Of a stretch of DNA of 64,000 nucleotides, positions 8,711-40,036 are shown in pieces. The number at the start of each line of letters is the position of its first letter. The first letter of the stretch is position 1. Below the pieces are notes generated by a model. The model was given only the letters and a program-made list of their open reading frames with translations. It searched no databases and had not been told where the DNA came from. The translations under genes and the position numbers were made by a program. The DNA is from Defluviitaleaceae bacterium (GTDB lineage Bacteria; Bacillota; Clostridia; Lachnospirales; WQUN01): NCBI GenBank assembly GCA_009786925.1, contig WRGY01000127.1:113010-177009 (forward strand), written 5' to 3'.

Positions 8711-8713
8711 TTT

Positions 8714-9106: not shown

Positions 9107-9128
9107 TTCAATCTTCCTTTCGTGTTAT

Positions 9129-9812
9129 TCACCACAAATCCAGTAAAAATGTGCGCATGGGTTTTTTTATGAGCATAAATAAAATCGGTATAAGTATACG
9201 GAGTGCAACTACTCTGCCTCGCACGGCAGCGTTTAGACTAATGGCCATGTCGTCAGAATGGAAATCTCCAACGAGTTGGATTTTTTCCTTTATAATAGGA
9301 AACATGCCTGCCAAAGTCTCGTATGCCCCAAAAAACAAGCCTGTTTTAAAAGGGCAAGCCAAACCGATAGAGCCGCTTACATTTATATACTCGGGCAACA
9401 AAGAGCCGCCGATTTTTTTCAGAGTATTAAGCACTTGTTTTATGATAGTTTTTCCTTGCGCGTCTGTCAAGACTTCATACACGCTTGCGGCTTTTTTTGT
9501 GGTGCTTTCTTTTTTTGTGGTTTTTGCAACTTTTTTTGTTTGTTTCGGTTGCTTCAATGGCTTTGGCTCTTTGTTTTTTAACTTTATCTTAAAAAACAAG
9601 ATATAAAAACGAGAAATATTTTCTCCATCAATGCTTTGATAATAAAAACGTATTAGTCTAAAAAAATATGTTACTTTTACGGAATAGCTTGTACCTTTGC
9701 CATGTGATGCCGTGACATTATATTTAACGGGTATAGCCAAAAACAGAAAAACCAACAACAAAAGCCCTACTAACACAACAAAAATCCATAACAAAATCCA
9801 CAATACAATCAT
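9129..9812 (-). CDS. DUF2953 membrane-anchored protein (YtfI-like, 227 aa)
   Basis: One N-terminal membrane helix (~2-27, LWILLWIFVVLVGLLLLVFLFLA region) is followed by IPVKYNVTASHGKG, the start of the DUF2953 domain, then a Lys/Thr-rich loop (~85-115) and a conserved C-terminal part (GSLLPEYINVSGSIGLACPFKTGLFFGA). The function of the family is unknown, but it is regularly found beside ytfJ in spore formers, as here (22 bp away). The upstream TIGR01906 gene is 2 bp away, suggesting one transcript. Confidence 0.75.
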   Translation of the reverse strand: MIVLWILLWIFVVLVGLLLLVFLFLAIPVKYNVTASHGKGTSYSVKVTYFFRLIRFYYQSIDGENISRFYILFFKIKLKNKEPKPLKQPKQTKKVAKTTKKESTTKKAASVYEVLTDAQGKTIIKQVLNTLKKIGGSLLPEYINVSGSIGLACPFKTGLFFGAYETLAGMFPIIKEKIQLVGDFHSDDMAISLNAAVRGRVVALRILIPILFMLIKKPMRTFLLDLW

Positions 9813-24513: not shown

Positions 24514-25049
24514 AAAAGGGAACGTGTTTTATAAGTATACTGTACCGCAGAATATATACTAATCGCTACTGTTGCAATGGTTAACGCAATCTCCAGAGGT
24601 GCGATTTGCAAAATCGTGAATGGAAACGGCAACAGGAGATATATGATTAATGCGATTTGCATACCTGTTTTCCACTTTGCACTACTACTCGCCGCCAAAA
24701 CGATGTTTTGCTCCAACGCAAGCTGTCGCAGACCTGAGATGTAAAACTCGCGACTTATCAATATTATCGTCACCCAAGCGTGCATACTGCCCGTATAAGT
24801 AAATGCAATAAATGCAGCACATACCAGCATTTTGTCGGCCAGTGGGTCCATGAGCTTGCCGAAGTTTGTCACCTGCCCCAGCTTGCGTGCCAAATATCCG
24901 TCTACAGCGTCAGTAATCGCCGCGACCACAAATAAAACCAACACGACCCACTCGTTAGCAATCTCCGGGAAAGGCTTGACAAGGTATATAACGAGAAATG
25001 CAGGAATAAGGAAAACCCGCAACAATGTTATTTTATTCGGTAAGTTCAT
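24498..25049 (-). CDS. pgsA: CDP-diacylglycerol-glycerol-3-phosphate 3-phosphatidyltransferase PgsA (183 aa)
   Basis: Membrane enzyme of phosphatidylglycerol synthesis. The CDP-alcohol phosphotransferase motif DAVDGYLARKLGQVTNFGKLMDPLADK (D-x2-DG-x2-AR-x8-G-x3-D-x3-D) is complete, flanked by about five membrane helices. ATG 25049 has TTGGAG 6 nt upstream, inside the rimO 3' end; an ATG at 25061 is weaker. Last gene of the ftsK-folD-rimO-pgsA operon. Confidence 0.95.
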   Translation of the reverse strand: MNLPNKITLLRVFLIPAFLVIYLVKPFPEIANEWVVLVLFVVAAITDAVDGYLARKLGQVTNFGKLMDPLADKMLVCAAFIAFTYTGSMHAWVTIILISREFYISGLRQLALEQNIVLAASSSAKWKTGMQIALIIYLLLPFPFTILQIAPLEIALTIATVAISIYSAVQYTYKTRSLFHTNS

Positions 25050-26355
25050 ACAATTCTCCAATAAGGTCGTAGTCTAGTGTACTCGTAATTTTGACATTAC
25101 ATATATCACCGAGTTTTAGCTTTTTGTCCGTTGCGATTGTGACGACTGCATCTACTTCATAAGCGTCATGCTGTGTACGTGCTGTATATTCTCCGTTTTC
25201 GTAAGAATCGACCATAACAGGGATGGTTTTTCCTACATGTTTTTGTTGGTTTTCGAAATGGATTTCTTGTTGGAGTTGCATGAGCTTTTTTAGGCGATTT
25301 TGTTTTGTGGCGGGTGGCACCTGATTTGGCATGGTTGCGGCAGTTGTGCCTTCTTCGCGAGAATAAGGAAACACTCCCAGCCGCTCAAACTTTGTCTCTT
25401 TGACAAAATCATATAGATTTTTGAAATCATCTTTTGTTTCGCCCGGGAAGCCAACAATAAATGTTGTGCGTATGGCGATGTCGGGTATCCGCTCACGCAG
25501 TACGCGAATGAGTTGCATAAGTTCCCATCTTCCACCTTTGCGACCCATACGCGAGAGTACGGAATCCTCGCTATGCTGTAGAGGCATGTCGATGTATTTA
25601 CATATCTGCGGCGTTTCGGCTATGGTGGTGATGAGTGTGGGGGTGATATGCTCGGGATAGGCGTACATCAGACGTATCCACTGCGCACCACTCTCCGCCG
25701 CAATTTTTTTGAGAAGCGCCGGAAGCTTTACCGCTCCGTATATATCTATGCCATACAACGCCGTATCCTGCGCTACAAGCACAAGCTCCTTCGTACCATA
25801 CTCTACGAGCAGGCGGCACTCGTCTAAAATTTCTTCCATCGGGCGGCTCTTGTAGGGGCCTCGTATTGCGGGAATGGTGCAGTAGGTACAGCAGTTGTCA
25901 CAGCCCTCGGAGATTTTTATATATGCTATATGAGAAGCCTCAGCGTCTTTCCTTGCTTGTATACGAGCATTTGTATTATCTGCTGCGAGCGACATACCTT
26001 TGGCTTTGCCGATATACTTTGCGACTATGTCCGCGATTTTTTCATATTCGCCCACACCCACAAAAGCATCGGCCTCGGGGATGGTCTCCTTGATTTCGCC
26101 CTTATATCGCTCTGCCATACAACCCACGATAATAAGTGCGCGGCATCGACCTTTTTTATACTCGGCCAATTCAAAAATAGTGTCGAGGCTTTCCTTCACC
26201 GCATCACTAATAAATCCGCAGGTGTTTATGATTATTGCCTCGGCCTCGGCAGGATTATTCACTACATCATAACCTGCCACACATAATGTGCCGACCATGA
26301 CTTCGCCATCTACACGGTTTTTGTCACATCCAAGTGACATCAAATATACATTCAC
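25033..26355 (-). CDS. rimO: Ribosomal protein S12 methylthiotransferase RimO (440 aa)
   Basis: Adds a methylthio group to Asp of S12. N-terminal UPF0004 domain (MNVYLMSLGCDKNRVDGEVMVG, with Cys residues for the second FeS cluster), radical-SAM cluster motif CDNCCTYC (~150), FIVGFPGETKDDF, and C-terminal TRAM domain (HVGKTIPVMVDSYENGEYTARTQHDA). The GTG start at 26355 overlaps the folD stop (GTGA); the 3' end overlaps pgsA. Confidence 0.96.
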   Translation of the reverse strand: MNVYLMSLGCDKNRVDGEVMVGTLCVAGYDVVNNPAEAEAIIINTCGFISDAVKESLDTIFELAEYKKGRCRALIIVGCMAERYKGEIKETIPEADAFVGVGEYEKIADIVAKYIGKAKGMSLAADNTNARIQARKDAEASHIAYIKISEGCDNCCTYCTIPAIRGPYKSRPMEEILDECRLLVEYGTKELVLVAQDTALYGIDIYGAVKLPALLKKIAAESGAQWIRLMYAYPEHITPTLITTIAETPQICKYIDMPLQHSEDSVLSRMGRKGGRWELMQLIRVLRERIPDIAIRTTFIVGFPGETKDDFKNLYDFVKETKFERLGVFPYSREEGTTAATMPNQVPPATKQNRLKKLMQLQQEIHFENQQKHVGKTIPVMVDSYENGEYTARTQHDAYEVDAVVTIATDKKLKLGDICNVKITSTLDYDLIGELYELTE

Positions 26356-27173
26356 GATTGCAACGCCTTTGCCTTTAAACAGTTTTCCATCAGTGTGGCG
26401 ACGGTCATCGGCCCCACTCCACCGGGTACGGGGGTCATGTACAAAGCTTTAACCAAAACGACAAAGTCCACATCGCCACATACCTTGCCGCCTTGGCGGT
26501 TTACGCCTACATCTATGACAACCGCGTTTTCTTTTACCATATCAGCGGTAATCAGCTTTGGAATACCTACCGCCGCCACCAATATATCCGCACGTAGGCA
26601 TTCTTCGGCGAGGTTTTTTGTACGGCTGTGACATATGGTTACGGTTGCATTTTCTGCCAAAAGCATCAGCGCGAGTGGCTTGCCCACGATGTCGCTCCTG
26701 CCAACTACCACTGCGTGTTTGCCCGCTATTTCTATGCCTTCACGCTTCAACAAGGTGATACATCCCGCCGGAGTGCAGGGCAAGAGACTTCCCTGTCCCG
26801 ACATTGCCAGCCCGACATTGTATGGGTGCAGACAGTCCACATCTTTTTTAGGGTTTAGCCTTGTTAGTATTTCATTCTTGTTTAAATGCGCGGGGAAGGG
26901 CTGTTGCACCAAAATCCCCGTAATTTTATCATCATTGTTTAGCTTATCAATCAATGCGTTTACTTCGGATTGGGCAGCCGTTTCGGGTAGCTTAAATAAT
27001 TCAAAATCAAAGCCGACCTCTTCACAGGCCTTTTTCTTCATATTAATGTACACTATGGAAGCGGGGTCGTCGCCTACCAAAATCACTGCCAGCTTACAGT
27101 CCTTGCCTTGGGCCTTTACCTCGGCGCGTATGGTTGCCGCATGTTTTTTGCCGTCTATTATTTTACCTGCCAT
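26352..27173 (-). CDS. folD: Bifunctional methylenetetrahydrofolate dehydrogenase/cyclohydrolase FolD (273 aa)
   Basis: Interconverts methylene- and formyl-tetrahydrofolate with NADP. Shows YINMKKKACEEVGF (catalytic Lys), GILVQQPFPAHLN, VVVGRSDIVGKPLALMLL and the C-terminal TPVPGGVGPMTVATLMEN. Length is slightly short of the usual 280-290 but intact. The start overlaps the ftsK end by 11 bp. Confidence 0.96.
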   Translation of the reverse strand: MAGKIIDGKKHAATIRAEVKAQGKDCKLAVILVGDDPASIVYINMKKKACEEVGFDFELFKLPETAAQSEVNALIDKLNNDDKITGILVQQPFPAHLNKNEILTRLNPKKDVDCLHPYNVGLAMSGQGSLLPCTPAGCITLLKREGIEIAGKHAVVVGRSDIVGKPLALMLLAENATVTICHSRTKNLAEECLRADILVAAVGIPKLITADMVKENAVVIDVGVNRQGGKVCGDVDFVVLVKALYMTPVPGGVGPMTVATLMENCLKAKALQS

Positions 27174-29715
27174 AGAGTTCTCGGTACTCCTCTCGGGTGA
27201 TTGTCACTTTCCTGGGCTTTACACCATCCTCGGGGCCCACGATGCCGCGTGCTTGCAGGTCATCCATGAGGCGCGAGGCTCGGTTATAACCTATCCTAAA
27301 CTGTCGCTGTAACATGCTCGTAGAACCCTTACCCTTTGCCAACAAAAACTCCACCGCGTCGTGGAAAAACTCATCTACTTCGCCTTCGGGTACAACCTTG
27401 CCGGGCATGGTTATACGTTGTATATCCTCCGGGGATTGTTCGACTTCGGGTGCTTGCGCTTTTAAGAAGTTAACCAACCCCTCGACCTCTCCGTCAGAAA
27501 TAAATCCACCCTGTACACGTATGGGTTTATTTTGCCCCATAGGAAGAAAGAGCATATCTCCCTTACCGAGCAGTTTCTCCGCGCCATACATATCCAAAAC
27601 CGTGCGGCTGTCGGTACCGCTACTCACAGCAAACGCCAAACGCGAGGGTATATTTGCCTTAATCAGCCCTGTGATAACATCCACAGAGGGTCTCTGCGTC
27701 GCTACCACCAAGTGTATACCTGCGGCTCGGGCTTTTTGTGCAAGTCGGCAGATGGACTCCTCTACCTCACCTTTACATGTCATCATCAAATCGGCAAGCT
27801 CGTCAATAATGATTACGATGAGTGGGAGTTCGTTGTCTCCGTTATTTTTTGCGTATTTATTATATCCTTTTAAATCGCGGCAACCTGTCTCCGCAAACAT
27901 ATTATATCTTGTTTCCATCTCTGCAACTGCCCAGCTAAGTGCGCCCGAAGCCTTTTTTGGGTCGGTGACAACAGGAATCAGCAAATGCGGAATGCCATTG
28001 TAAACACTAAGCTCCACTACCTTAGGGTCAATCATCAAAAGTTTAACCTCATCTGGCCGCGACTTATACAACAGGCTGGTGATGAGGGTGTTTATACAGA
28101 CACTTTTTCCGCTACCCGTAGCACCTGCAATCAGCAGATGCGGCATACGTGCGATGTCGGTGATGATGGGGCTGCCCGCAATATCCTTGCCTACGGCAAA
28201 TGAAAGCTTTGACGGAAAATTAACAAATCTCTCATCCTCCAAAATTTCGCGCAAGAAAACGCCCTGCGCCTCCTTATTTGGAATTTCTATACCCACAGCA
28301 GACTTGCCCGGAACAGGAGCCTCAATCCTAAGACCTTGTGCCGCCAGACTAAGTGCCAAATCATTGCTCAAATTAGCAATGGAGCTGACCTTAACCCCCG
28401 GCCCCGGTGCAAGGTCATATCGTGTAACCGTAGGTCCCACACTTACCTCAACGACCTTTGCTTCGATTCTAAAGCTCCTAAGTGTTTCTTCTAAAATCCT
28501 GGAGTTTTCCAAAACCTGTGTCCTTGACTCCGCGCTGATAGAAGGACGCTCGTTCTTGGAGAGCAGACTAAGCGAGGGCAGTTGATAATCCTCGTAGGTA
28601 TGCTGTTTTGCAATCGGAGTCGACGGCGCAGTCGCACGCCCCGCCTGTGCATACTCGTCATAATCCAACATATCATCATCGTCATCTGCAAAAAGCGGAG
28701 GCACAGGCTCTTCTTCCCCTACCCCATCAATCAAGCCCTTTACAATAGGGCCTTCGCTAACAGGTAAAACTTCAAACTCATCTGCCAGCTCGTCCGACAG
28801 GTCATCCGGCGACTCATCATCCGACTCGTACATTGGCTCGTCCGGCAGCTCATCCAATGGCTCCTCTTCTACATATGAATCAAAAGAGTCGCCGACAATA
28901 GTAGCAGGGAAAGAAATCACCGCCGACCGTTTATTCAGGTCATCGGCGATGACAGGCTTACGCTCTGCAAAAAGCGGATTTGGCTGCTTTCTTTTTTCTA
29001 ATTCTTCGTTTATGAGCATGATTTTTCCGGGCGATTCCGGCTCATATGATTGTTCCAAGTCTATGATATTGCTTTTTTTATCTTTTTTGCGAGGTGGTCT
29101 CACAGGGATGATATTGTCAGGCACGTCATCATCTTCTTCTTCGTAATAATGCCGAGACTCCTCATAGTAGTCACGCGCTTTGCCCACACCGTTTCCTAAA
29201 AAATTGACAAAGGAGCGTCCCGTGATTAATATGACCAAAATCACGATTGCTACGATAATTGCAATCGGCGCGCCCACACCCAACAACGCACTGAGAGAGC
29301 CTCCTATGAGCATACCAAAAATGCCTCCGCCAGATTCCAATCCCGCCCTGTATACTTCAAAGAAAATAAAGTCATCCGTTTCGCGATTAAAAACAAAAAT
29401 ATGTAAAAGGGATAAAATAAGCCAAAACGTGGCAATGATTTTGACAACAGGCAATACGACCTCGCGTGCAATAAGCCTGCAAACCGCAACCGCCAAGATG
29501 CCGACAGGCAAAACAAAAGCTCCATAGCCAAAAAAGCCAAACAAAAATCCACGAAAAAAGTTACCAATCCCGCCCATATTGTCCGGCAAAAGCACAGCAA
29601 GTAATAGCAAAAAGCCGGCCGCCGAAAGCGAAAGATATTTAACTTCGTTGTGGATAAGCGTTTCTTTTTTAGACCCGGGAGCAGACTTAGGAGGGGTAGA
29701 GACTTTGCGAGGCAT
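27163..29715 (-). CDS. ftsK: FtsK/SpoIIIE DNA translocase (850 aa)
   Basis: Pumps chromosomal DNA through the division or sporulation septum. Four N-terminal membrane helices (~30-165), an acidic linker (~180-350, Asp/Glu/Pro-rich), alpha/beta motor (~370-760) with Walker A GATGSGKSVCINTL and Walker B VIIIDELADLMM, and a C-terminal gamma winged helix (TSMLQRQFRIGYNRASRLMDDLQARGIVGPEDG) that reads polarity sequences. ATG 29715 has AAGGTG upstream; a GTG at 29727 is possible. Heads the operon. Confidence 0.95.
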   Translation of the reverse strand: MPRKVSTPPKSAPGSKKETLIHNEVKYLSLSAAGFLLLLAVLLPDNMGGIGNFFRGFLFGFFGYGAFVLPVGILAVAVCRLIAREVVLPVVKIIATFWLILSLLHIFVFNRETDDFIFFEVYRAGLESGGGIFGMLIGGSLSALLGVGAPIAIIVAIVILVILITGRSFVNFLGNGVGKARDYYEESRHYYEEEDDDVPDNIIPVRPPRKKDKKSNIIDLEQSYEPESPGKIMLINEELEKRKQPNPLFAERKPVIADDLNKRSAVISFPATIVGDSFDSYVEEEPLDELPDEPMYESDDESPDDLSDELADEFEVLPVSEGPIVKGLIDGVGEEEPVPPLFADDDDDMLDYDEYAQAGRATAPSTPIAKQHTYEDYQLPSLSLLSKNERPSISAESRTQVLENSRILEETLRSFRIEAKVVEVSVGPTVTRYDLAPGPGVKVSSIANLSNDLALSLAAQGLRIEAPVPGKSAVGIEIPNKEAQGVFLREILEDERFVNFPSKLSFAVGKDIAGSPIITDIARMPHLLIAGATGSGKSVCINTLITSLLYKSRPDEVKLLMIDPKVVELSVYNGIPHLLIPVVTDPKKASGALSWAVAEMETRYNMFAETGCRDLKGYNKYAKNNGDNELPLIVIIIDELADLMMTCKGEVEESICRLAQKARAAGIHLVVATQRPSVDVITGLIKANIPSRLAFAVSSGTDSRTVLDMYGAEKLLGKGDMLFLPMGQNKPIRVQGGFISDGEVEGLVNFLKAQAPEVEQSPEDIQRITMPGKVVPEGEVDEFFHDAVEFLLAKGKGSTSMLQRQFRIGYNRASRLMDDLQARGIVGPEDGVKPRKVTITREEYRELYGR

Positions 29716-29921
29716 CAAAGAACACACCTTTTTATGAAGGCAACCAGTAGGCTACCTAAAAAATGACCAAGCTTGCGAGATTATAGCATTAATAGGAAAG
29801 TATTACAAGAAAGAGGCAACTTCGCACTTTTTGTCGCATTGTGTTTATGCTCGCAGTTGCTTCCGTGAGGTTAAGAATGTTTAGTAAAATAAAAAAAATA
29901 TGACTAGGGGGATAATCTAAA

Positions 29922-30341
29922 ATGAACAGAGCATTAACAAGAAAAAACAAAGACCGTTTGGACCGTACCATAGGCCAAAACATCAGAGCCGAACGTGAAA
30001 TGAGAAAGATGTCTCGCGAAGAACTAGCCGAAGCACTGGATTTGACCGTATCACACATGGGCCTGATGGAGCGTGGCGAGCGTGGAGCTACTGCTTTAAC
30101 GCTGGAAAAACTTGCATATGTATTCGACTTAAAAATCGACTCTCTTTTTGCGGAGCCTGACAAAAAATCATTATCCGTTAAAGAAGGCGGAGACGAAGCC
30201 CTTGCAAACCGCAAAAAAATCGCTAGCCTTCTGACTCGTCTAAACGAAAAAGAAACAGAATTTGTAGTGCATGTGATAAGCGGAATGATAAGTCTCCATC
30301 TCACACGCGACCTAAGCACTCACGAAGGCTACAAAAAATAA
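29922..30341 (+). CDS. XRE-family helix-turn-helix regulator (139 aa)
   Basis: HTH_3 domain at ~18-75 (IGQNIRAEREMRKMSREELAEALDLTVSHMGLMERGERGATALTLEKLAYVF). The C-terminal half (~85-139) is helical and of unknown role. GGGGG lies 12 nt before the ATG. It lies between ftsK (divergent) and the tRNA group; no target gene is evident. The stop is 3 bp before the -35 of the tRNA promoter. Confidence 0.85.
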   Translation: MNRALTRKNKDRLDRTIGQNIRAEREMRKMSREELAEALDLTVSHMGLMERGERGATALTLEKLAYVFDLKIDSLFAEPDKKSLSVKEGGDEALANRKKIASLLTRLNEKETEFVVHVISGMISLHLTRDLSTHEGYKK

Positions 30342-30344
30342 TAC

Positions 30345-30373
30345 TTGACGAAGATGTGTGCGTGGTTTATACT
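30345..30373 (+). promoter_or_regulatory. tRNA-Phe promoter
   Basis: TTGACG (30345-30350), 17-bp spacer, TATACT (30368-30373), 35 bp before the mature tRNA 5' end. Confidence 0.65.
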
Positions 30374-30408
30374 TGCTATCGCGTGTTTGGCTCCGCATAC
30401 ATCTTTAT

Positions 30409-30481
30409 GCCCAGTTAGCTCAGTTGGTAGAGCAGTGGACTGAAAATCCACGTGTCGTTGGTTCAATTCCGACACTGGGCA
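30409..30481 (+). tRNA. tRNA-Phe (anticodon GAA)
   Basis: Full cloverleaf: acceptor GCCCAGT/ACTGGGC, D arm GCTC/GAGC, anticodon loop CTGAAAA with GAA, T arm GTTGG TTCAATT CCGAC. 73 nt to the discriminator A; CCA is not encoded. Confidence 0.95.
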
Positions 30482-30495
30482 TTGCGCTCGTTTTT

Positions 30496-30566
30496 GCGGG
30501 TGTAGTTCAATGGTAGAACACTAGCCTTCCAAGCTAGATACGCGGGTTCGATTCCCGCTACCCGCT
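30496..30566 (+). tRNA. tRNA-Gly (anticodon TCC)
   Basis: Acceptor GCGGGTG/TACCCGC (with a G-T pair), anticodon stem CTAGC/GCTAG with loop CTTCCAA (TCC), T arm GCGGG TTCGATT CCCGC. 71 nt; no encoded CCA. It follows tRNA-Phe by 14 bp and is probably co-transcribed. Confidence 0.95.
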
Positions 30567-30597
30567 TTTGCAGACCTATACACAAAATGGATTACAT

Positions 30598-30626
30598 TAG
30601 ACAAATAGATTTTGTTATGATATAAT
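30598..30626 (+). promoter_or_regulatory. tRNA-Gly(GCC) promoter
   Basis: TAGACA (30598-30603), 17-bp spacer, TATAAT (30621-30626), 9 bp before the tRNA 5' end. Confidence 0.6.
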
Positions 30627-30635
30627 CCCAGACAT

Positions 30636-30707
30636 GCGCGAATGGCTCAGTGGTAGAGCATCGCCTTGCCAAGGCGAGGGTCGTCAGTTCGAATCTGATT
30701 TCGCGCT
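30636..30707 (+). tRNA. tRNA-Gly (anticodon GCC), integration target
   Basis: Acceptor GCGCGAA/TTCGCGC, D arm GCTC/GAGC, anticodon stem TCGCC/GGCGA with loop TTGCCAA (GCC), T arm GTCAG TTCGAAT CTGAT. 72 nt, no CCA. Its 3' 48 bases recur at 33891, marking it as the attachment site of the following island. Confidence 0.95.
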
Positions 30708-30708
30708 T
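30660..30708 (+). repeat. attL-like direct repeat (tRNA-Gly 3' part)
   Basis: 49 bp from the anticodon stem to two bases past the acceptor stem, inside the intact tRNA gene. It differs from the 33891 copy at two T-stem positions that pair with each other (T-A here, C-G there). Confidence 0.85.
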
Positions 30709-30717
30709 CCCGAAAAT

Positions 30718-30739
30718 CCCGCATAAATGCGGGTTTTTT
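30718..30739 (+). terminator. Terminator after tRNA-Gly(GCC)
   Basis: CCCGCA (30718-30723) pairs with TGCGGG (30728-30733), followed by six T. Confidence 0.8.
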
Positions 30740-30813
30740 CATGTCTCTGCATTTTCTAGTTTGGAAAATTTTAGGCGACTTTTACCCTCTAAACTTGCCT
30801 AAAATTATCGGCG

Positions 30814-30835
30814 TTGCTGTCAAAATTGCTGTCAA
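30814..30835 (+). repeat. Two direct TTGCTGTCAA repeats at the left end of the island
   Basis: TTGCTGTCAAAA (30814-30825) directly followed by TTGCTGTCAA (30826-30835). A third copy lies at 33811-33821 near the right end in the same orientation. Candidate integrase arm sites; no experimental support here. Confidence 0.55.
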
Positions 30836-30877
30836 TTTTGACCCCGTGCAAATCCATTACATCCTATGTACATTGAA

Positions 30878-30908
30878 AGAAGCGGCTCGGGGGTCGCTTC
30901 TTTTTTTT
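30878..30908 (+). terminator. Terminator or attenuator ahead of the AlbA_2-BRCT gene
   Basis: AGAAGCG (30878-30884) pairs with CGCTTCT (30895-30901), followed by eight T. It lies about 100 bp before the start at 31012, so it ends upstream transcription or acts as a leader control. Confidence 0.65.
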
Positions 30909-31011
30909 GTCCATGAACATATCTCCATTTTTGCCACAAATGCCATTTGTTCCGTTGACAGCGTGGAGAGTTTATGATTTTATTATAGAAAATGCTATGG
31001 GGATGGTTTCT

Positions 31012-32775
31012 ATGACTGAAATGCAAACATTCGAACGCAAGCGCGAATACAATCAAAAAGCCCAAAACACCATGCTTGCATTTTTGAACACCGATGGCGG
31101 TACGCTTTACATTGGAATTTCCGATGACGGTTCTGTCTATGGCGTTGAGGGAAATATTGATGAAATAGCGCGAAGCATCACCAACAGCTTTCGTGATTCT
31201 GTCACACCCGACCCTTCCGGATATTTTAAGGTTGACCACGAAACACGTGAAGGCAGAGATATTATCGTTATCACTATGGAGCGGGGTTCTTCCATTCCTT
31301 ATTGCTATGCATCTGATGGTCTTACACCCAAGGGCGTATATGTGCGTGTAGGAAGCAATACCGTAATGGCGACCCATGAACATATCCGCCAAATGATTAA
31401 GGACAGCGGCACAGGGCAGTTTTTGACAGAATTATCCGTTGAGCAAAACCTCACCTTTGAATATGCCGACAAGGTGTTTGCAGAAAAGGACGTTTATTTC
31501 GGGGAAACACAAAAACAATCACTTGGGCTAATCCGTGCCGATGGACGCTATGCAAACCTCGCCCTTATCCTCTCCGACCAATGCCCATACACCACAAAGG
31601 CTGCAATTTTCGAAGGGCAGACCAAGGCGAAATTCAAAGACCGCAAAGAATTTACAGGTTCGATTTTCAAGCAAATTGAAGAAGTCCACTCGTATCTTCA
31701 TGTATATAACCGTACCAGAGGTACATTTGATGGCGTTTACAGAGTAGACCACCCCGATTATCCCGATATTGCCATTCGGGAGTCTCTTATCAATTCGTAT
31801 ATTCACCGCGACTACTATATAGAAGGAAGCGTCCTTGTGAGTTTGTTTGATGACCGCCTTGAATTTATGTCGGTGGGCGGGGTTATGCCCGGCGTTACTC
31901 ACGACCTTATGCGCTTGGGTGTTTCAGTTACGCGAAACGAGAAGCTGGCGCAGGTTTTTTATCGGTTGAAAATTATTGAAGCATTCGGTACGGGAATACC
32001 GCGCATTTTTGAGTCGTATGAAAAATGCTCAGTTGTCCCGGAAATTCCCGTAATTGACGGCGGTTTTCTTATCCGCATTCCCAATATAAACCACGCTATG
32101 CCAAAGGACGCAGTGAACGGCAAGATTGCGAATGGTTCAAGTGAACAGCAGTTACTAGACACGTTTTCCGGCGTAAATTTCAGCAAAGAAGATGCCGCAA
32201 AGATTCTTGGGTTAAGCGTGAGTGGTGCGTATAAATTGTTGCAACGAATGGTAGGAAACGGTTTGCTTGCCACACGAAAAGAGGGCAAGAAATGGACGTA
32301 CAGCGATATGCAAAACCAAGCAGACTACGCCATCGTAGAAAGTGAGTATCTTGCAGGAAAATTCGTAGCCTTCGTTGGAATGTTTAGCGGCGGAGCGACA
32401 AAACTGAAAGACCTTGTTTATGCAGCGGGCGGCGCACCAACGGACACCATTCCGGCGTTTACGAATTACATCGTAATCGGAGAGCGCGGTCAAGAATCGC
32501 AAGCTTACAAAAACGCAAAACAAATGATTGATTCCGGGGGACATATCGAATTGACCGAAAGTGAACTTCGCAGTATCTGTGCAGGAGAAATACCCGCGCC
32601 TGCGGAGAAGCCAATTCGGAGCGATAATCAGATGCTTTCCTATGCACTGCCGGAATATGAACGCGAGCGAAAAGAACGTCAAGCGGATGTTTTCCATGCC
32701 AAACGCGCCGCATTTGTGCAAAAGTACGGTGTACTTCAACCTGATGGAAGCAGAGATAAAAAATATTGGGGCTAA
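31012..32775 (+). CDS. AlbA_2 / RecG-like ATPase-fold / winged-helix / BRCT fusion protein (587 aa)
   Basis: Residues ~1-115 are a Schlafen-AlbA_2 domain (FERKREYNQKAQNTMLAFLNTDGGTLYIGISDDG, PKGVYVRVGSNTVMA). Residues ~240-360 match the HATPase_c_4 region of AlbA_2 'ATP-dependent DNA helicase RecG-related' proteins (AIRESLINSYIHRDYYIEG, FGTGIPRIFESYEKC). Residues ~375-435 are a winged helix (SKEDAAKILGLSVSGAYKLLQRM). Residues ~450-530 resemble a BRCT domain (GKFVAFVGMFSGGATKLKDLVYAAGG ... YIVIGERGQESQAYKNAKQM). The BRCT addition is unusual. ATG 31012 has GGGG 9 nt upstream and fits the family start; in-frame starts extend to 30907. Function is unproven; relatives act as regulators or in phage defence. 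Confidence 0.82.
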   Translation: MTEMQTFERKREYNQKAQNTMLAFLNTDGGTLYIGISDDGSVYGVEGNIDEIARSITNSFRDSVTPDPSGYFKVDHETREGRDIIVITMERGSSIPYCYASDGLTPKGVYVRVGSNTVMATHEHIRQMIKDSGTGQFLTELSVEQNLTFEYADKVFAEKDVYFGETQKQSLGLIRADGRYANLALILSDQCPYTTKAAIFEGQTKAKFKDRKEFTGSIFKQIEEVHSYLHVYNRTRGTFDGVYRVDHPDYPDIAIRESLINSYIHRDYYIEGSVLVSLFDDRLEFMSVGGVMPGVTHDLMRLGVSVTRNEKLAQVFYRLKIIEAFGTGIPRIFESYEKCSVVPEIPVIDGGFLIRIPNINHAMPKDAVNGKIANGSSEQQLLDTFSGVNFSKEDAAKILGLSVSGAYKLLQRMVGNGLLATRKEGKKWTYSDMQNQADYAIVESEYLAGKFVAFVGMFSGGATKLKDLVYAAGGAPTDTIPAFTNYIVIGERGQESQAYKNAKQMIDSGGHIELTESELRSICAGEIPAPAEKPIRSDNQMLSYALPEYERERKERQADVFHAKRAAFVQKYGVLQPDGSRDKKYWG

Positions 32776-32924
32776 CTTTCAAAGTTTGCATGACCACTTG
32801 CGTATCAATTCCCCAAAAAAATGAATTTGCATAATTCATATCCCTGTAATACGCATAATTACTCAAACACTTCCCTGCGAAACGGTATGTCGTGTAATAG
32901 AATTATGCAAAGGGGAGTTGAGCG

Positions 32925-33254
32925 ATGCTTCACGAGGAATTTTTTGCAAACCGCCTTGCGTCTTTGCGTATAAAGAAAGGCGTGTCCGCACGAGATATGA
33001 GCTTGTCCATCGGGCAGAGCGCGAATTATATAAACAAAATTGAAGGTAGGAAATCTTACCCATCTATGACGGTGTTTTTCCACATATGCGAATATTTAGG
33101 GATTACTCCCAAAACTTTTTTCGATGAAGATGTTCCCAATCCGGCAATTATAAACGAGCTGCAAGACCACTTTAATGGGTTGGATGCTGATTCTCAAAGC
33201 CTTTTCTTTGGGCTTGTACGAAAAATGTCTTTGATGTGCAAGACATGCAAGTGA
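32925..33254 (+). CDS. XRE-family helix-turn-helix regulator (109 aa)
   Basis: HTH_3 at ~9-67 (NRLASLRIKKGVSARDMSLSIGQSANYINKIEGRKSYPSMTVFFHICEYLGITPKTFF), then a short helical tail. AAGGGGAG precedes the ATG. It lies 149 bp after the AlbA_2-BRCT gene in the island and may control it; that is inferred only from position. Confidence 0.85.
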   Translation: MLHEEFFANRLASLRIKKGVSARDMSLSIGQSANYINKIEGRKSYPSMTVFFHICEYLGITPKTFFDEDVPNPAIINELQDHFNGLDADSQSLFFGLVRKMSLMCKTCK

Positions 33255-33364
33255 AAAAAATGTTATACTGTGTTGTTACTTTCAGCTCATTGGGTGTTGT
33301 GCAAATTGACTGCGCTTACTCATAAAAAAGGTCGAGCGATTTCTGTCGAAAAAGTGTTGACAGT

Positions 33365-33694
33365 TCAGGAGCCTTCATAGTGCTGAATCGGCAGGCCAAT
33401 AAGAAGCTCAACCTTGATTGGGTCATGCGGTGTTAGCTCTCTAACCATTTCTGCCTCTCCTACAAGCTCTTTTCCAATGGCGAACAACGTCAAAATAAAG
33501 TAATTTTCGTTTTCCGCCTTGTCCATATGCACCGGAAAATTCGTGTCAACTAAGGTGTACACCCTGTCTTGATATTTTAACACGTCGCCGCCTATTGTTG
33601 GCAGATATTCGCTTTCAACAAAACCTGCGGGGAACACCAAATGTTCGGTTTTTATTAACCGGTTTCCGTGGTCGATGGAGATAATTAGTTTCAT
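33365..33694 (-). pseudogene. ParM/StbA-like actin-family plasmid segregation protein, N-terminal fragment (109 aa)
   Basis: MKLIISIDHGNRLIKTEHLVFPAGF and the following YQDRVYTLVDTNFPVHMDKAENENYFILTLFAIGKEL resemble the first subdomain of ParM-like proteins in Firmicutes mobile elements. The frame stops at IGLPIQHYEGS, about a third of the normal length, so the rest is lost. ATG 33694 has AGGAGG upstream. Probably a relic of the element's plasmid or ICE ancestry. Confidence 0.65.
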
Positions 33695-33840
33695 TTCATT
33701 TCCTCCTGTATTTTCAGAATGGCTTTGCAGTTTTTGTCTAAAAAACGCAAGCCTTTGAATTGATTGACAGGTTAACGTCGTGTTGCTAAAATTCATTCAA
33801 TTGCCGTAAATTGCTGTCAAACTTCAAAAACTGAAAATGC

Positions 33841-33878
33841 AAAAACCGCCTAGATTGCGGGCTTGAGGCAGGTTTTTT
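33841..33878 (+). terminator. Imperfect terminator hairpin near the island's right end
   Basis: AAAAACC-GCCT pairs with AGGC-A-GGTTTTTT around a 14-nt loop; one bulged A. Usable in both directions. Confidence 0.5.
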
Positions 33879-33890
33879 AAGAGCGTGACT

Positions 33891-33939
33891 ATCGCCTTGC
33901 CAAGGCGAGGGTCGCCAGTTCGAATCTGGTTTCGCGCTT
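33891..33939 (+). repeat. attR-like direct repeat (truncated tRNA-Gly copy)
   Basis: Copy of the 3' part of tRNA-Gly(GCC) without acceptor 5' strand or D arm, so it is not a working tRNA. T arm here is GCCAG TTCGAAT CTGGT, a compensated C-G pair relative to the intact gene. Confidence 0.85.
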
Positions 33940-33947
33940 AACCGTAA

Positions 33948-33972
33948 GCCCGCTTAAACAGCGGGTTTTTTG
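33948..33972 (+). terminator. Terminator after the truncated tRNA copy
   Basis: GCCCGC (33948-33953) pairs with GCGGG (33961-33965), followed by six T. It resembles the terminator after the intact tRNA. Confidence 0.7.
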
Positions 33973-34022
33973 CTATTTGTGCCAATCCTGTTGAGAGGGA
34001 AAATTCTGTACATAATCCTCTC

Positions 34023-35639
34023 CTAATCCAAAGGCAAACTAACCGTCATTTGCCACTCGCCGCCGAACATAACCGACTGCTCCCTGTAATCCTGCAACCA
34101 CAGCGAATAGAAATACATCCTCTCATTGCTTATGTCCGTGTCGATATGTTCAAACATTCGGTGGTCGTCACTCCAAACTCCGATTGTCCAAAGCCGTTCA
34201 CCTCTTTCCCCACGCACAATAGACCTGTAAAGGCTCATTGTGCCGCCCTCAGCCCAAATATCCATGTTTGGCAAACGCCACGCCAAACGGATTCCGCCGG
34301 GCGAGGGTTCAACTACATAATGGCTACGGTCGAGATTTTCGCCGAGAAAGATTAAATCGCGCCCCATTTCGCCGATATAATATCGAATTGTTTGAATGGG
34401 AAGGTTTTGCGTATCCACGACAATTCTTCGGTTGCCGAAGATTTCCCTGTCGGGTTCGCTCCATGCACCACTCCATTGCCTCCCATGGTCGTCCCACATT
34501 ATGGGGCGGGTCAAGTCGTAGCGCAGTTCAAAAATTCCCGACTCTAATTCATACATAGAGACAGGTTTGGTTGCAACCCCAAACCCTCCCATCAGCAAAT
34601 TCAGCGGAGTAACGGGAAGACTGCGAAAAATGCCGCCCATAATCCAAATATCGTCGGCATGAAGATGAATTGTCGGGTGAACGTGAAAATTAACAGGGAG
34701 TATGGAGTTTGCGTCAATCACAGGGCTGTAGTGAAATGCCTTGTCAACCCAATTGCCGCTTATGTGTTGCAAAACCGTTATAATTTCGGCATCACATCTT
34801 GCGGCGAGACGTTCAAATGTGAGGCCGCGTGAGAGAAATCCCGCGAAAACCCAGCCTACGCCGCGATTCGTATAAATCTGCACGAAACGTCCGCTGTAGT
34901 CCAAAATTTCAAATTCGTCGCCGTAATGTACGAAGGTTAAAACGTCGTAATTATCGCCCGGACCGGTACGCACGCGCAAAACATGGGCGTAGTCGATGAC
35001 CTGCCTCGTACCGACCGAAAACGTGTCACGGCGGATAAACTGCCCCGGCGTAAAGGCAGTCGGCGGCGTGGTTGAAATATCAATACGCTGACGCATATCC
35101 TGCTCTACGCGGAAACCCAGCCAATATGATAAATCGTACAGACAAAAATAAAGTCCGTCCACATCTGCGACAGCGGTAAAAGATATTGTTATTGCGGGCG
35201 TTTCATCGCCGTCAATCCCAAGTACAATTCGGCGAAACGGATTCCGCCCGAAATCGGGGTGGCTTCCGCCGGGCGCAGGAATAAATCCATAGGACCCGAA
35301 CAATGCGTTCCGTGGGGAAATCCATTGCAATTCCGTGAAATTTACGGTGTACGGTTCGCCCCACCGAATCCAAAAATCCCATCCGTATGGGGCTTCGATT
35401 ATGTCAAACTGCGCGGGTGTTCCGTTCAGTATATACGCAACATCGCGCAATGAAACCGAGAATAAATTAACACCGTCACCCGCATATCCCCAAACTTCAA
35501 AAGGTAAACCGTCCACGAAAATATAAAACCGTTGCGAATTAAAGCCCGATGTGGCAGAAGCATCTGTCGCAAACATTGACATCATAAAAACCGCCGCTAA
35601 TATCCACACGCTAACGGATTTTAATGCTTCTTTGCCCAT
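34023..35639 (-). CDS. Secreted protein with stalk-like and SH3b domains (538 aa)
   Basis: Signal peptide (KSVSVWILAAVFMMSMFATDASA). Residues ~30-180 have the FYIFVDGLPFEVWGYAGDGVNLFSVSLRDVAYIL pattern of copper-amine-oxidase-N-like stalk domains, with a second copy around VDGLYFCLYDLSYWLGF. Residues ~205-265 form a bacterial SH3 domain (ALRVRTGPGDNYDVLTFVHYGDEFEILDYSGRFVQIYTNRGVGWVFAGFLS type), usually binding cell wall. The C-terminal ~270 residues are not recognised. ATG 35639 has AGGGTGGAG upstream. It stands alone; likely surface-bound. Confidence 0.75.
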   Translation of the reverse strand: MGKEALKSVSVWILAAVFMMSMFATDASATSGFNSQRFYIFVDGLPFEVWGYAGDGVNLFSVSLRDVAYILNGTPAQFDIIEAPYGWDFWIRWGEPYTVNFTELQWISPRNALFGSYGFIPAPGGSHPDFGRNPFRRIVLGIDGDETPAITISFTAVADVDGLYFCLYDLSYWLGFRVEQDMRQRIDISTTPPTAFTPGQFIRRDTFSVGTRQVIDYAHVLRVRTGPGDNYDVLTFVHYGDEFEILDYSGRFVQIYTNRGVGWVFAGFLSRGLTFERLAARCDAEIITVLQHISGNWVDKAFHYSPVIDANSILPVNFHVHPTIHLHADDIWIMGGIFRSLPVTPLNLLMGGFGVATKPVSMYELESGIFELRYDLTRPIMWDDHGRQWSGAWSEPDREIFGNRRIVVDTQNLPIQTIRYYIGEMGRDLIFLGENLDRSHYVVEPSPGGIRLAWRLPNMDIWAEGGTMSLYRSIVRGERGERLWTIGVWSDDHRMFEHIDTDISNERMYFYSLWLQDYREQSVMFGGEWQMTVSLPLD

Positions 35640-35775
35640 ACTGAAACTCCACCCTCGCTGTGAAATACACTGCAACAAATTATATCATGAATTTAATTTT
35701 AAATCCGCTATTTGCTATTGCCATTCAGATGTGTTACAGTGAGTAATAATTTTTAGGATAAAGGTGGTGAGAGGT

Positions 35776-35943
35776 ATGGAACAATTCACATTCAAAACAG
35801 CAATGACAAAGGGCAACTGCGCCCATTTGGCGGTTTTTAACCGTCAGCTTGCTCATGATTTTTCCACTTTACGGGATGAGTATACCCATTTTTGGAAAAG
35901 CGATTGTTTTGAATGCCTGTCACCACATGATATAGCGGCCTAG
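35776..35943 (+). CDS. Leader ORF upstream of the ABC-F gene (55 aa)
   Basis: A 56-codon ORF (MEQFTFKTAMTKGN ... ECLSPHDIAA) with GGTGGTGAGAGG before its ATG. It ends at a perfect hairpin AGCGGC CTAGTT GCCGCT (35934-35951) and is followed 22 bp later by a strong terminator in front of the ABC-F gene. Short translated leaders in this position sense ribosome stalling by antibiotics and let transcription pass the terminator. The product itself is unlikely to have another role, though this cannot be excluded. Confidence 0.65.
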   Translation: MEQFTFKTAMTKGNCAHLAVFNRQLAHDFSTLRDEYTHFWKSDCFECLSPHDIAA

Positions 35944-35965
35944 TTGCCGCTCCTTTATGTATGGT

Positions 35966-36006
35966 ATCCCCTGTGCAAACAAAACAGTATGCACAGGGGA
36001 TTTTTT
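35966..36006 (+). promoter_or_regulatory. Transcription attenuator in front of the ABC-F gene
   Basis: ATCCCCTGTGCA (35966-35977) pairs perfectly with TGCACAGGGGAT (35990-36001), followed by six T. The terminator lies only 19 bp before the ABC-F start, so it must be overcome for expression, as in known antibiotic-induced ABC-F leaders. Confidence 0.82.
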
Positions 36007-36024
36007 ATATAGAGGAGCTTTTTT

Positions 36025-37599
36025 ATGATTGATATATCGGTTAATGGGTTAAATAAATATTATGGCTCAAATCATGTGCTTCGTGGTATCACCTTTGAAG
36101 TTTATAAGGGTGAAAAGGTTGGACTATTGGGCAAAAATGGTTCAGGTAAAACAACACTCTTTAAAGTTGTTGCCGAGGATGAGCCTTATGACAGTGGTAG
36201 CATATCAAAGGCATCGGGCAAAAAAGTAGAGATTCTTGCACAGATGCCGATATTTGGCGAAAACGACACGGTGGACGATGTTCTGCGTTCGTCATTCGCA
36301 GATATTGCAGAAATACATGAGTCCATGAAGAAAATCGAGGGCGACGGCAATCCGTCCGTTTTGAAGCGTTATGGCAAGCTGATGGACGAGTATGAGCGGC
36401 TTGGCGGGTATGATGTAGAAACAAAAATAGAAAAAATATGTAATGGAATGGGTATTGGCGAAAATATGCGGCATGGGTTGTTTAGCTTACTAAGTGGAGG
36501 TGAAAAAACCAGAGTCAACTTGGCGCGCATTCTTCTCCGCGATTGCGATATTCTATTGCTCGACGAGCCGACCAACCACCTTGATTTGGACTCTTTGGAG
36601 TGGCTGGAAAATTTTATTAAAAAGTTTTTGGGGACGGTTGTGATTATTTCTCATGACCGAGTTTTCCTTGATAATGTGGTGAGTCGGATTATCGAAATCG
36701 AAGATGGCGAAGCTAATTTTTATTCAGGCAATTATACTTTTTATGCAGAAGAAAAAGAGCGACGCTATCAAACCCAAGCAGAGCAGTACAAACAGCAACA
36801 GCGTAAAATTGGACAACTGGAAACGGCAATCAAACGGCAACGTGTGTGGGCGGCAATAAATCCATCAAATTCAAGCTTGGCTAAACGCGCTCTGGCTATG
36901 GAAAGGCGCATCGAGCAGATGGAAAAGGTGGACAAGCCCACCACATCACGGAAAATGGCAGAGGATTTTAACAGTGGAGGCCATGCGGCAAAAGTGGTTG
37001 TGTCGCTTGATTTGGTGCGGAAGTCCTACGGCTCCAATGTGATTATTGATGATGTCAGCCTTAGTATTGACAGGAATGAACGTATTGCCCTAATCGGCGC
37101 GAATGGATGTGGCAAAACCACTCTTTTGAAAATGATTATGGGTGAGGAAATGTGTGACAGCGGTACAGTCAAAGTGAGCAGTAATATTAAAATTGCGTAC
37201 ATGCCCCAAATCATTGTGTTTGACGATTCAAATGCAACGGTACTCGATACTCTGCGCAATGCCGCGCCGCTTCCCGAAGAAAAACTGCGAAGCATACTTG
37301 CACGCTTTAAATTTAAAGCACCGGATGTAATTAAAAAAGTCGGCAGTCTTTCGGGTGGCGAAAGAAGCCGACTAAAGCTCTGTTTACTCATGCAAAACCA
37401 AGCTAATTTTTTGATTCTTGACGAGCCGACAAACCATCTCGATATTGAATCAAGAGAGTGGATTGAGGATGCTATTGAAGATTTTAACGGCACGATGTTG
37501 TTTATTTCTCATGACCGATTTTTTCTGAGCAAATTTGCTACAAAAATATGGAGCATGAGTGGAGGCGGGGTCAAATACTGCCACGATGAAGCATGGTAA
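36025..37599 (+). CDS. ABC-F family ATPase, probable ribosome-protection protein (524 aa)
   Basis: Two ABC domains in one chain without membrane segments: Walker A1 GLLGKNGSGKTT (~34), signature LSGGEKTR (~152), Walker B LLLDEPTNHLDLDSLEWLE; the interdomain linker (~220-320) is charged and helical; Walker A2 GANGCGKTT (~354), LSGGERSR (~440), ILDEPTNHLDIESREW. Such proteins enter the ribosomal E site and displace antibiotics or relieve stalling. The attenuated leader favours drug-inducible resistance over housekeeping, but the class of drug cannot be told. GAGGAG precedes ATG 36025. The 3' end overlaps the lacI-type gene on the other strand. Confidence 0.88.
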   Translation: MIDISVNGLNKYYGSNHVLRGITFEVYKGEKVGLLGKNGSGKTTLFKVVAEDEPYDSGSISKASGKKVEILAQMPIFGENDTVDDVLRSSFADIAEIHESMKKIEGDGNPSVLKRYGKLMDEYERLGGYDVETKIEKICNGMGIGENMRHGLFSLLSGGEKTRVNLARILLRDCDILLLDEPTNHLDLDSLEWLENFIKKFLGTVVIISHDRVFLDNVVSRIIEIEDGEANFYSGNYTFYAEEKERRYQTQAEQYKQQQRKIGQLETAIKRQRVWAAINPSNSSLAKRALAMERRIEQMEKVDKPTTSRKMAEDFNSGGHAAKVVVSLDLVRKSYGSNVIIDDVSLSIDRNERIALIGANGCGKTTLLKMIMGEEMCDSGTVKVSSNIKIAYMPQIIVFDDSNATVLDTLRNAAPLPEEKLRSILARFKFKAPDVIKKVGSLSGGERSRLKLCLLMQNQANFLILDEPTNHLDIESREWIEDAIEDFNGTMLFISHDRFFLSKFATKIWSMSGGGVKYCHDEAW

Positions 37600-38566
37600 A
37601 GGGGACAAAGTTCTTTCCGTTAAACGGTAGGCCTTTTGCGATTTGTTGCAAAGTGTCTACGGCGAGCCTACCCATGCCATAGAAATCCTGAAAAATCGTA
37701 GCGACCGGAGGCGTTGTATATTCCAACGCCTTTAGTCCGTCAAAACCAATCAGCGCGATGTCCTTACCTGCCACCAAACCTTCTTCTTTAATAGCACGCA
37801 ACGCTCCGAGTGCCATGAGGTCACTGGCTGCGTATATTGCCGTAATATCCTTGTGGATTTGCAATATTTTTTTTGTGTTTGCATAAGCAATATCCTCCAC
37901 AAAATCACCGGGGATGATATGTATATCATCCAACATGTGACGGCGGGCGGCAGAGATAAAGCCGTTTTCGCGCTGTTTGGTGACTTCGGAGGCGGGGTGG
38001 CCGAGTATGTGGCAGATTTTCTTGTGGCCTTTTGACACGAGCAGGTCTACCGCATCCGATGAGGCTTTTTCGTTGTCAGTTGTTACAAAGGCGGTGTGCG
38101 CACCTTCGCGCTCCACATCTATGAGGACTGTGGGGATGGTGCTTTCCAACAAGGCTTCAAGATAGGGGTCATCGTCACCTACCCCTTGCACGATGGCACC
38201 CATCAATGAATGATGCTTGCAAAACTCAACATAGGTTTGCTTAAACTGCTTAATCTGCGGAGTGGTGAATATAATCAGCTCCTGTCCGATTTCACAGGCG
38301 CGAGCATGTGTCCCGCTTAACAGGCGGAACATATGCTCATCGAAAGTGTTGTGCGTGTTTAGGTCTTTTACGATTAGCCCAAGGTAGGGTTTTCGCCCGC
38401 GAGAAAGCTCTACGGCAGATTTGTTTGGGATATAGTCCAGTTCCTTTGCCGCAAAAAAAATTCTTTCCTTTGTCACATCGGAGATTTCTGCGTAGTTGTT
38501 AAAGGCTTTTGAGACTGCGGAGATACTCACTCCCGCACGCATTGCTACATCTTTTATCGTTGACAT
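37571..38566 (-). CDS. LacI-family transcriptional regulator (331 aa)
   Basis: N-terminal HTH (STIKDVAMRAGVSISAVSKAFNNYAEISDVTKERIFFAAKELDYIPN) with hinge helix, then a periplasmic-binding-protein-like sensor (residues ~60-331, YLGLIVKDLNTHNTFDEHMF, AIYAASDLMALGALRAIKEEG, IALIGFDGLKALEYTTPPVATIFQD). Expected effector is a sugar. AGGAG precedes the ATG. No transport or sugar gene is adjacent, so its target is unknown. Confidence 0.92.
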   Translation of the reverse strand: MSTIKDVAMRAGVSISAVSKAFNNYAEISDVTKERIFFAAKELDYIPNKSAVELSRGRKPYLGLIVKDLNTHNTFDEHMFRLLSGTHARACEIGQELIIFTTPQIKQFKQTYVEFCKHHSLMGAIVQGVGDDDPYLEALLESTIPTVLIDVEREGAHTAFVTTDNEKASSDAVDLLVSKGHKKICHILGHPASEVTKQRENGFISAARRHMLDDIHIIPGDFVEDIAYANTKKILQIHKDITAIYAASDLMALGALRAIKEEGLVAGKDIALIGFDGLKALEYTTPPVATIFQDFYGMGRLAVDTLQQIAKGLPFNGKNFVPFTMLHRGSI

Positions 38567-38584
38567 GATTTATACTCCTATAAA

Positions 38585-40036
38585 TTACGAATGTTTTCTT
38601 CTAAGCCATACAAACGCACCGATTGCAATAAATATAAGGGGCAAGCCACCCATGCTAATCCCGCCGATGATATTAGCCTCGCTTGCTGTTATCAAAAGTG
38701 GCATTTGGCCGGGTGGTACACGCCCCGGTATCCAAATGCTCGGTGGCTGGTCTGTCATCCACTGCAATGAGTTAAGCACAAAAAGCCAGTTTGCCTCGCC
38801 GATATAGGCATTGTACCATGGGTCGATAAAGTCAAAGCTGTTAGTCACTACCAAATGCGTATAATACGCCGTTCCGTCTAAGAAAATCCTGTCAGTAACC
38901 GCAAGGGCAAGCGGAAAAGACCCGCCGATATCCGACGGATGGCGTGCCGCAGTCTCAGCCTCCGAGCCTACCCCGCGTGAAAACGCACTGTCTGTAGTAT
39001 GCCAAATCGGCTCTATATCCAGAGTCGTGCGACGGACACTGTTAACCCGCATTTCTGTGGCAAGGAAGGGGATGATGTTTGTAAAGCCGCGGAGATTTTC
39101 GTTGATTGGATGTGGGGTTAGGTTTGGTACGATATACGGAACGCGCCCGGGAAATATATAATTTCCGTCCACTTCAAATATAAAATTGCCTGTGACATAA
39201 AGGCCATATGCATCCAATACGCTTGCGAGATTTGGCGTAGCGTCTTGCACATGGTCAAGCGCGAAAAATGCTCGCCCCTCTTCTTCTAAAAATGTAAGCA
39301 CCCTTGCTGCTTTTGGCTCTGTCCAGTCACGAGACGGCATGGGAATAAAGAGAATATCCGCATCTTCAGGGATTTCTTGCAATACGAGATTAACCTCTCG
39401 CAGTTCAAAATTTTCTGATTCCAAAAAAGAAACAAACTGCGGCGGGAGTGGGAGTTCTCCACTTCCCATTACATAATAAACCACAGTGGCCGCACCCTGT
39501 GTCACATGATGGATGGCCCTTGTGATTTCGCGTTCGATATTATAGCTTGTTATACGCATGATTTGTCCCGTGAATGGGTTGATGTCAAAATCAACCATCT
39601 CATGAGACTGTACCACGCGAATCGCATCGGCAGATTCTACCACGACGCTATGGCTGGGGATACCGCCTTCTATACCTGCATCCGCCGCAAAACGATGTAC
39701 CAATGCAGGGTTTAGCATGGGGTCGCGTTGCTCGATGGTGATATAAGAACTCGCCGCATCGTATTCTGTGAGCAAGTGGCTGATAATCCGTGACATTTCT
39801 GCAAGCCCGCCGGGCAACTCCTGCCCTACCCCTGCAATAAGTGTAATTGTAATATCCTGCTCCAGCTCATCCAAAAAACCACGGCTCTGCTCCGTAAGCG
39901 TAAAAATCCTCTGGGTGGTCAAGTCAAGATTTCTATCAAACTCACCCGCGAGCAAGTTTGCCAACACAAAAATAACAATGGCAAAAAGCACCATTACAGT
40001 AGAAAAAGTCCCATATCGAAAGCGTTTGTCAAACAT
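38585..40036 (-). CDS. GldG-like ABC-transporter auxiliary protein (483 aa)
   Basis: Membrane helix at ~14-35, a large extracytoplasmic ABC_transp_aux domain (RIFTLTEQSRGFLDELEQDITITLIAG, ADILFIPMPSRDWTEPKAARVLTFLEEEGRAFFALD) and a C-terminal helix (~455-478) followed by LRRKHS. It is co-transcribed with the permease and ATPase genes upstream. Such three-part sets (GldA/F/G type) export unknown substrates in non-gliding bacteria. Confidence 0.85.
   Translation of the reverse strand: MFDKRFRYGTFSTVMVLFAIVIFVLANLLAGEFDRNLDLTTQRIFTLTEQSRGFLDELEQDITITLIAGVGQELPGGLAEMSRIISHLLTEYDAASSYITIEQRDPMLNPALVHRFAADAGIEGGIPSHSVVVESADAIRVVQSHEMVDFDINPFTGQIMRITSYNIEREITRAIHHVTQGAATVVYYVMGSGELPLPPQFVSFLESENFELREVNLVLQEIPEDADILFIPMPSRDWTEPKAARVLTFLEEEGRAFFALDHVQDATPNLASVLDAYGLYVTGNFIFEVDGNYIFPGRVPYIVPNLTPHPINENLRGFTNIIPFLATEMRVNSVRRTTLDIEPIWHTTDSAFSRGVGSEAETAARHPSDIGGSFPLALAVTDRIFLDGTAYYTHLVVTNSFDFIDPWYNAYIGEANWLFVLNSLQWMTDQPPSIWIPGRVPPGQMPLLITASEANIIGGISMGGLPLIFIAIGAFVWLRRKHS

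Follow-up and report, generated by a model that had tools for sequence, protein, structure and literature searches.

A Schlafen-GHKL-winged-helix protein with a C-terminal BRCT domain, probably a self-regulated RNA-cutting protein, in a Defluviitaleaceae bacterium

What might a bacterial protein do when a Schlafen-type core is joined to a BRCT domain, a module otherwise typical of DNA-repair proteins? The question is raised by a gene in a 64,000-nucleotide stretch from a Defluviitaleaceae bacterium (the window). Positions 31012-32775 of the forward strand form one uninterrupted reading frame of 587 amino acids, and homologues begin at the equivalent methionine, showing that the start codon is correct. 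We assigned the following layout.

31012-32775, forward strand: SLFN-GHKL-wHTH-BRCT protein, 587 amino acids (reading frame, Pfam, homologue alignment, fold)
31018-31365, forward strand: Schlafen/AlbA_2 domain, residues 3-118 (Pfam; E3, E8 and K10 align with SLFN11 E209, E214 and K216, PMC9482658)
31828-32025, forward strand: GHKL-type HATPase_c_4 domain, residues 273-338 (Pfam, fold matches)
32137-32307, forward strand: winged helix-turn-helix, about residues 376-432 (weak Pfam match, fold)
32350-32601, forward strand: BRCT domain, about residues 447-530 (hhalign, AF2 model, PDB structure matches, profile back-search)
32653-32754, forward strand: long C-terminal helix and conserved motif KRAAFxxxYGVxQPDGxR (AF2 model, homologue comparison)

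The SLFN_AlbA_2 (E 7e-18) and HATPase_c_4 (E 3e-16) matches are above the Pfam cut-offs, and an N-box-like RESLINSYIHRDY directly precedes the latter domain. The helix-turn-helix, matched weakly by Pfam (residues 393-430, E 0.006), is a clear winged helix by fold. Overall, residues 1-430 are predicted to adopt a fold that matches PDB 3lmm, SLFN12, the SAMD9 tRNase domain, GHKL kinases and winged helix-turn-helix proteins; the best full-length structural match, DIP2311 from Corynebacterium diphtheriae (PDB 3lmm), has about 15-18% identity to the window protein. The sole PADLOC matches were pAgo/Aga models covering the middle region, which we did not accept as Argonaute membership since pAgo proteins with an AlbA_2 domain are known (PMC6299218).

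A PDB profile search with the Schlafen region retrieved SLFN12, SLFN14, SLFN11 and bacterial CbCash (2e-9 to 2.5e-6). E3, E8 and K10 are invariant in 14/14 aligned homologues, with the spacing of SLFN11 E209, E214 and K216, each of which is essential for nuclease activity, while D252 is dispensable (PMC9482658). SLFN13 needs a three-carboxylate triad (PMC5862951), whose third member aligns with S37 of the window protein, next to a nearly invariant D38. The E/E/K signature and the SLFN structural matches make RNA cleavage by the core plausible, while S37 at the third carboxylate position counts against it. Among the human Schlafens, known as antiviral RNases, SLFN11, SLFN12, SLFN13 and SLFN14 share this core and its active-site signature, and SLFN11 likewise couples an RNase to DNA binding. 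To our knowledge, none of the four carries a BRCT. Vertebrate SLFN13 differs from the window protein in its pseudo-dimeric core (PMC5862951) and SLFN11 in its helicase domain (PMC9482658).

The first-pass annotation had proposed a C-terminal BRCT-like domain, unusual for such proteins; the domain proved real and the fusion unusual, with profile search and structure prediction of the C-terminal region both in favour. PF00533 gave no match at the Pfam gathering score in the window protein or its homologues, and NCBIfam yielded for BRCT a weak LigA match alone (E 0.087). A seven-row profile combined the window protein, the fusions L009, L010 and L021, and the BRCTs of L008 (joined to an XRE domain in one protein), L003 (immediately following an XRE gene) and L004 (a fragment). 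Compared by hhalign with 11 LigA and other BRCTs, it reached E 4.7e-8 (94.9%), against a best E of 0.013 among 60 column-shuffled controls, and the fusion rows alone still reached E 1.5e-5 against LigA-type BRCTs. An hmmsearch of PDB gave two matches alone, both RFC1 BRCT (E 0.14-0.16); over genomes of the same class and phylum the seven-row profile recovered LigA and DnaQ-type exonuclease BRCTs, with E down to 6e-9. The AF2 model of the C-terminal region has the BRCT order b-a-b-b-a-b-a (mean pLDDT 79, and about 90 across most of the BRCT). Of the 50 PDB structures closest to it, nearly all are BRCTs, headed by RFC1 (2ebu, E 3.5e-4). BRCT fold and remote sequence homology are thus established. 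The full-length model is poor in this region, which counts against the explanation we favour below.

The domain resembles the single BRCTs of LigA, RFC1 and DnaQ-type exonuclease-BRCT proteins in fold and by remote homology, but falls below PF00533 and does not conserve their phosphate pocket. The same BRCT subtype occurs in XRE-BRCT regulators of the same bacterial family (L008/L098, L099), with the C-terminal tail in L008 too; these differ in joining it to an XRE helix-turn-helix, without a Schlafen or kinase-like domain. The module is fused to the XRE regulator in L098 (2456-3235) and directly overlaps one in L099 (3540-4123), where the BRCT has an internal stop. The L008 module was absent from the plasmids and phages searched. 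L097 (2983-4251 and 4368-4601, reverse strand) holds a divergent Schlafen-like gene with a BRCT fragment and an XRE-like fragment upstream on the same strand, all apparently degraded.

Might the BRCT steer the protein to DNA ends or nicks, as first suggested? The 5'-phosphate residues of the Rfc1 BRCT are T166, G167, R174 and K209 (PMC9359705). The window BRCT keeps the glycine alone (1/4); the Thr, Arg and Lys positions carry V, T or a gap, and Q, and vary among the fusions. With three of the four pocket residues missing, we find no support for targeting to DNA ends. In the corresponding defence model, the BRCT of an effector would recognise ends, nicks or 5'-phosphates in phage DNA and thereby activate the RNase. 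Such a model would fit the nearest folds, which are single BRCTs of RFC1, REV1 and XRCC1, RFC1 itself binding 5'-phosphorylated ends (PMC9359705); a helix beside the window BRCT also recalls the Rfc1 DNA-binding linker helix, and SLFN11 combines a tRNase with stalled-fork binding (PMC9482658). Given the replaced pocket, we consider such end sensing decidedly unlikely. It also seems unlikely that a Schlafen RNase has gained a DNA-repair-type BRCT sensor and would shut off translation at particular DNA structures or replication/repair proteins; if true, the protein would be a bacterial counterpart of SLFN11, in which tRNA cleavage is linked with stalled forks.

The gene had been read as island cargo forming a candidate two-gene defence unit with a neighbouring XRE regulator. 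The following features bear on both parts.

30660-30708, forward strand: left direct repeat, the 3' part of tRNA-Gly(GCC) (repeat comparison)
33891-33939, forward strand: right direct repeat, a copied tRNA-Gly 3' end and probable attachment-site scar (repeat comparison)
32925-33254, forward strand: XRE-type small regulator (Pfam), a neighbour and not a conserved partner

Duplication of the tRNA-Gly 3' end around the gene supports its placement as cargo of a small tRNA-integrated island, and this part of the earlier claim holds. Inspection of the open reading frames revealed no integrase between the repeats. A reading frame at 33365-33796 (reverse strand) weakly matches ALP_N (E 0.013), the N-terminal domain of actin-like plasmid segregation proteins, and ends early; it is likely the remnant of a larger mobile element. 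In this genus the tRNA-Phe/Gly/Gly cluster (window 30408-30707) appears to be a hotspot for integration: in relatives it is followed by tyrosine-recombinase-like fragments (L079 and L081, by an RHTFAT-type motif) or, in L082, by an IrrE-family gene with a helix-turn-helix.

The XRE gene starts after a gap of 149 bp. Ahead of it, window 32826-32911 contains a perfect 12-bp inverted repeat (TTTGCATAATTC/GAATTATGCAAA) and a third similar site, which are probably the XRE operator. Among the gene clusters listed, computed on all 22 loci with relatives of the 587-residue protein, we recognised neither an XRE homologue nor any recurrent partner gene; the relatives sit singly among unrelated genes. 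We reject the two-gene unit because the adjacency is not conserved and the XRE gene has its own operator-like repeats.

Upstream of the Schlafen gene itself lie three further features.

30876-30908, forward strand: hairpin then T run, terminator-like, which may insulate the gene from upstream (sequence)
30919-30926, forward strand: one upstream TCTCC site, operator-like (2-6 in most homologues)
30955-30983, forward strand: probable promoter, TTGACA-N17-TTTTAT, its spacer containing GGAGAG (position shared with homologues, whose -10 is stronger)

Nearly all close homologues examined, across phyla and including Treponema, have 2-6 upstream TCTCC sites, frequently spaced about 9 bp apart, with GGAGA placed between -35-like and -10-like boxes, at otherwise unrelated loci. 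Shuffled sequences seldom reach the observed counts, and the arrangement is absent in three more distant homologues (L026-L028). Sharing of this promoter suggests self-regulation by the winged helix. The window promoter keeps the -35 box, the spacer GGAGAG and one TCTCC; homologues have a stronger -10 box and stronger upstream repeats, therefore expression may be low here, a point against our preferred explanation. A conserved operator-like promoter would also suit a transcriptional regulator without RNase activity, in which the SLFN/AlbA_2 and winged-helix domains bind DNA, the GHKL domain senses nucleotide and the BRCT dimerises or recruits a partner. Some SLFN/AlbA_2 proteins are indeed treated as DNA-binding regulators (PMC6299218), which counts against an RNase effector, and elsewhere the related BRCT modules accompany XRE regulators, fused to them in L008/L098 and encoded by an overlapping gene in L099. 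Invariance of the E/E/K nuclease residues would not be expected had activity been lost, however, and the gene clusters listed show no conserved surrounding genes for such a protein to control; we regard a pure regulator as possible, if rather unlikely.

A scan of 84,980 species genomes placed relatives at 22 loci, in Clostridia and Treponema and, more distantly, in Sphaerochaeta, Bacilli and Caldisericia; isolate names suggest that the Clostridia and Treponema hosts come from termite or cockroach guts. Most complete homologues stop near residue 435, without a BRCT. The BRCT is intact in three loci (window, L009, L010) and interrupted in L021, and in L022, whose homologue lacks a BRCT, a relic of the tail remains past the stop codon (tail motif KIAAFARRYGVLQADGGR at 5975-6028, shortly after the stop). 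In L021, the broken fusion gene is followed about 3 kb downstream by a second, more divergent Schlafen gene (8557-9735). The loci with an intact, broken or relict BRCT all fall within a single clade of 10 members (100/98 support); in it, L011 and L012, the closest relatives of the window protein, have no BRCT. Gain and loss on the tree require at least two changes, with three the best estimate, so a single BRCT-fusion clade is not shown; the pattern fits early acquisition followed by several losses, or exchange. BRCT dN/dS is about 0.2 for the window against L009 and L010 (dS about 1.5) and 0.39 between L009 and L010. By these sequence comparisons, the BRCT is a patchy accessory of one clade under purifying selection. 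The patchiness, the broken L021 and relic L022 copies, the weakened window promoter and the lack of an integrase inside the island would each suit a decaying island remnant with the BRCT as a neutral, disposable tail. Against this, the 587-codon frame is open despite heavy divergence, BRCT dN/dS is low and the C-terminal motif is kept, and we consider decay very unlikely.

Viral-contig scans found no relatives of the window protein, and tblastn against phages and plasmids returned many homologues of the core, all of them covering less than 80% of the query. The single BRCT match in the phage collection was a LigA gene. L133 (MT839175.1), filed as phage, carries this type of gene, LigA, with a dihydrodipicolinate-synthase-like gene, and is probably bacterial DNA.

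The earlier link of the AlbA_2-type core to phage defence has gained ground. One report (PMC12839542) describes proteins that combine a Schlafen RNase, a minimal histidine kinase and a winged helix. It finds them close to BREX loci, in at least 1017 taxa, and groups them with BREX and anti-phage defence. Their three core domains, and the order of these, agree with the window protein, which differs in adding a C-terminal BRCT and helical tail and in having no BREX genes seen nearby. By inspection, we recognised no BREX core genes among the open reading frames of window 24000-40000, and none recurs as a gene family near homologues; nor were other defence genes found among the neighbours read, which counts against the explanation we favour. 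The three-domain core is thus already known, while no description of its fusion to a BRCT was found in the searchable literature.

Our best reading, held with middling confidence, is a solitary Schlafen-type RNase effector and autoregulator with an added docking domain. The N-terminal domain would be a metal-dependent RNase, its probable target tRNA or other RNA, controlled by the GHKL domain as a nucleotide-binding switch. The winged helix may bind the TCTCC/GGAGA sites in its own promoter and so keep the protein level low. The single BRCT and helical tail would be an accessory docking module for DNA or a partner protein, one not using the usual phosphate pocket, that tunes where or when the protein acts. 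Carried on a tRNA-integrated island, the protein would most likely serve as a phage- or stress-triggered effector that blocks translation; it is probably a self-regulated RNA-cutting protein, and perhaps phage-triggered.

The connection of bacterial Schlafens with phage defence is recent. A natural clade with and without the added BRCT offers a ready comparison for what this sensor does, and the shared TCTCC/GGAGA promoter is a DNA target on which the winged helix of the family can be tested directly.
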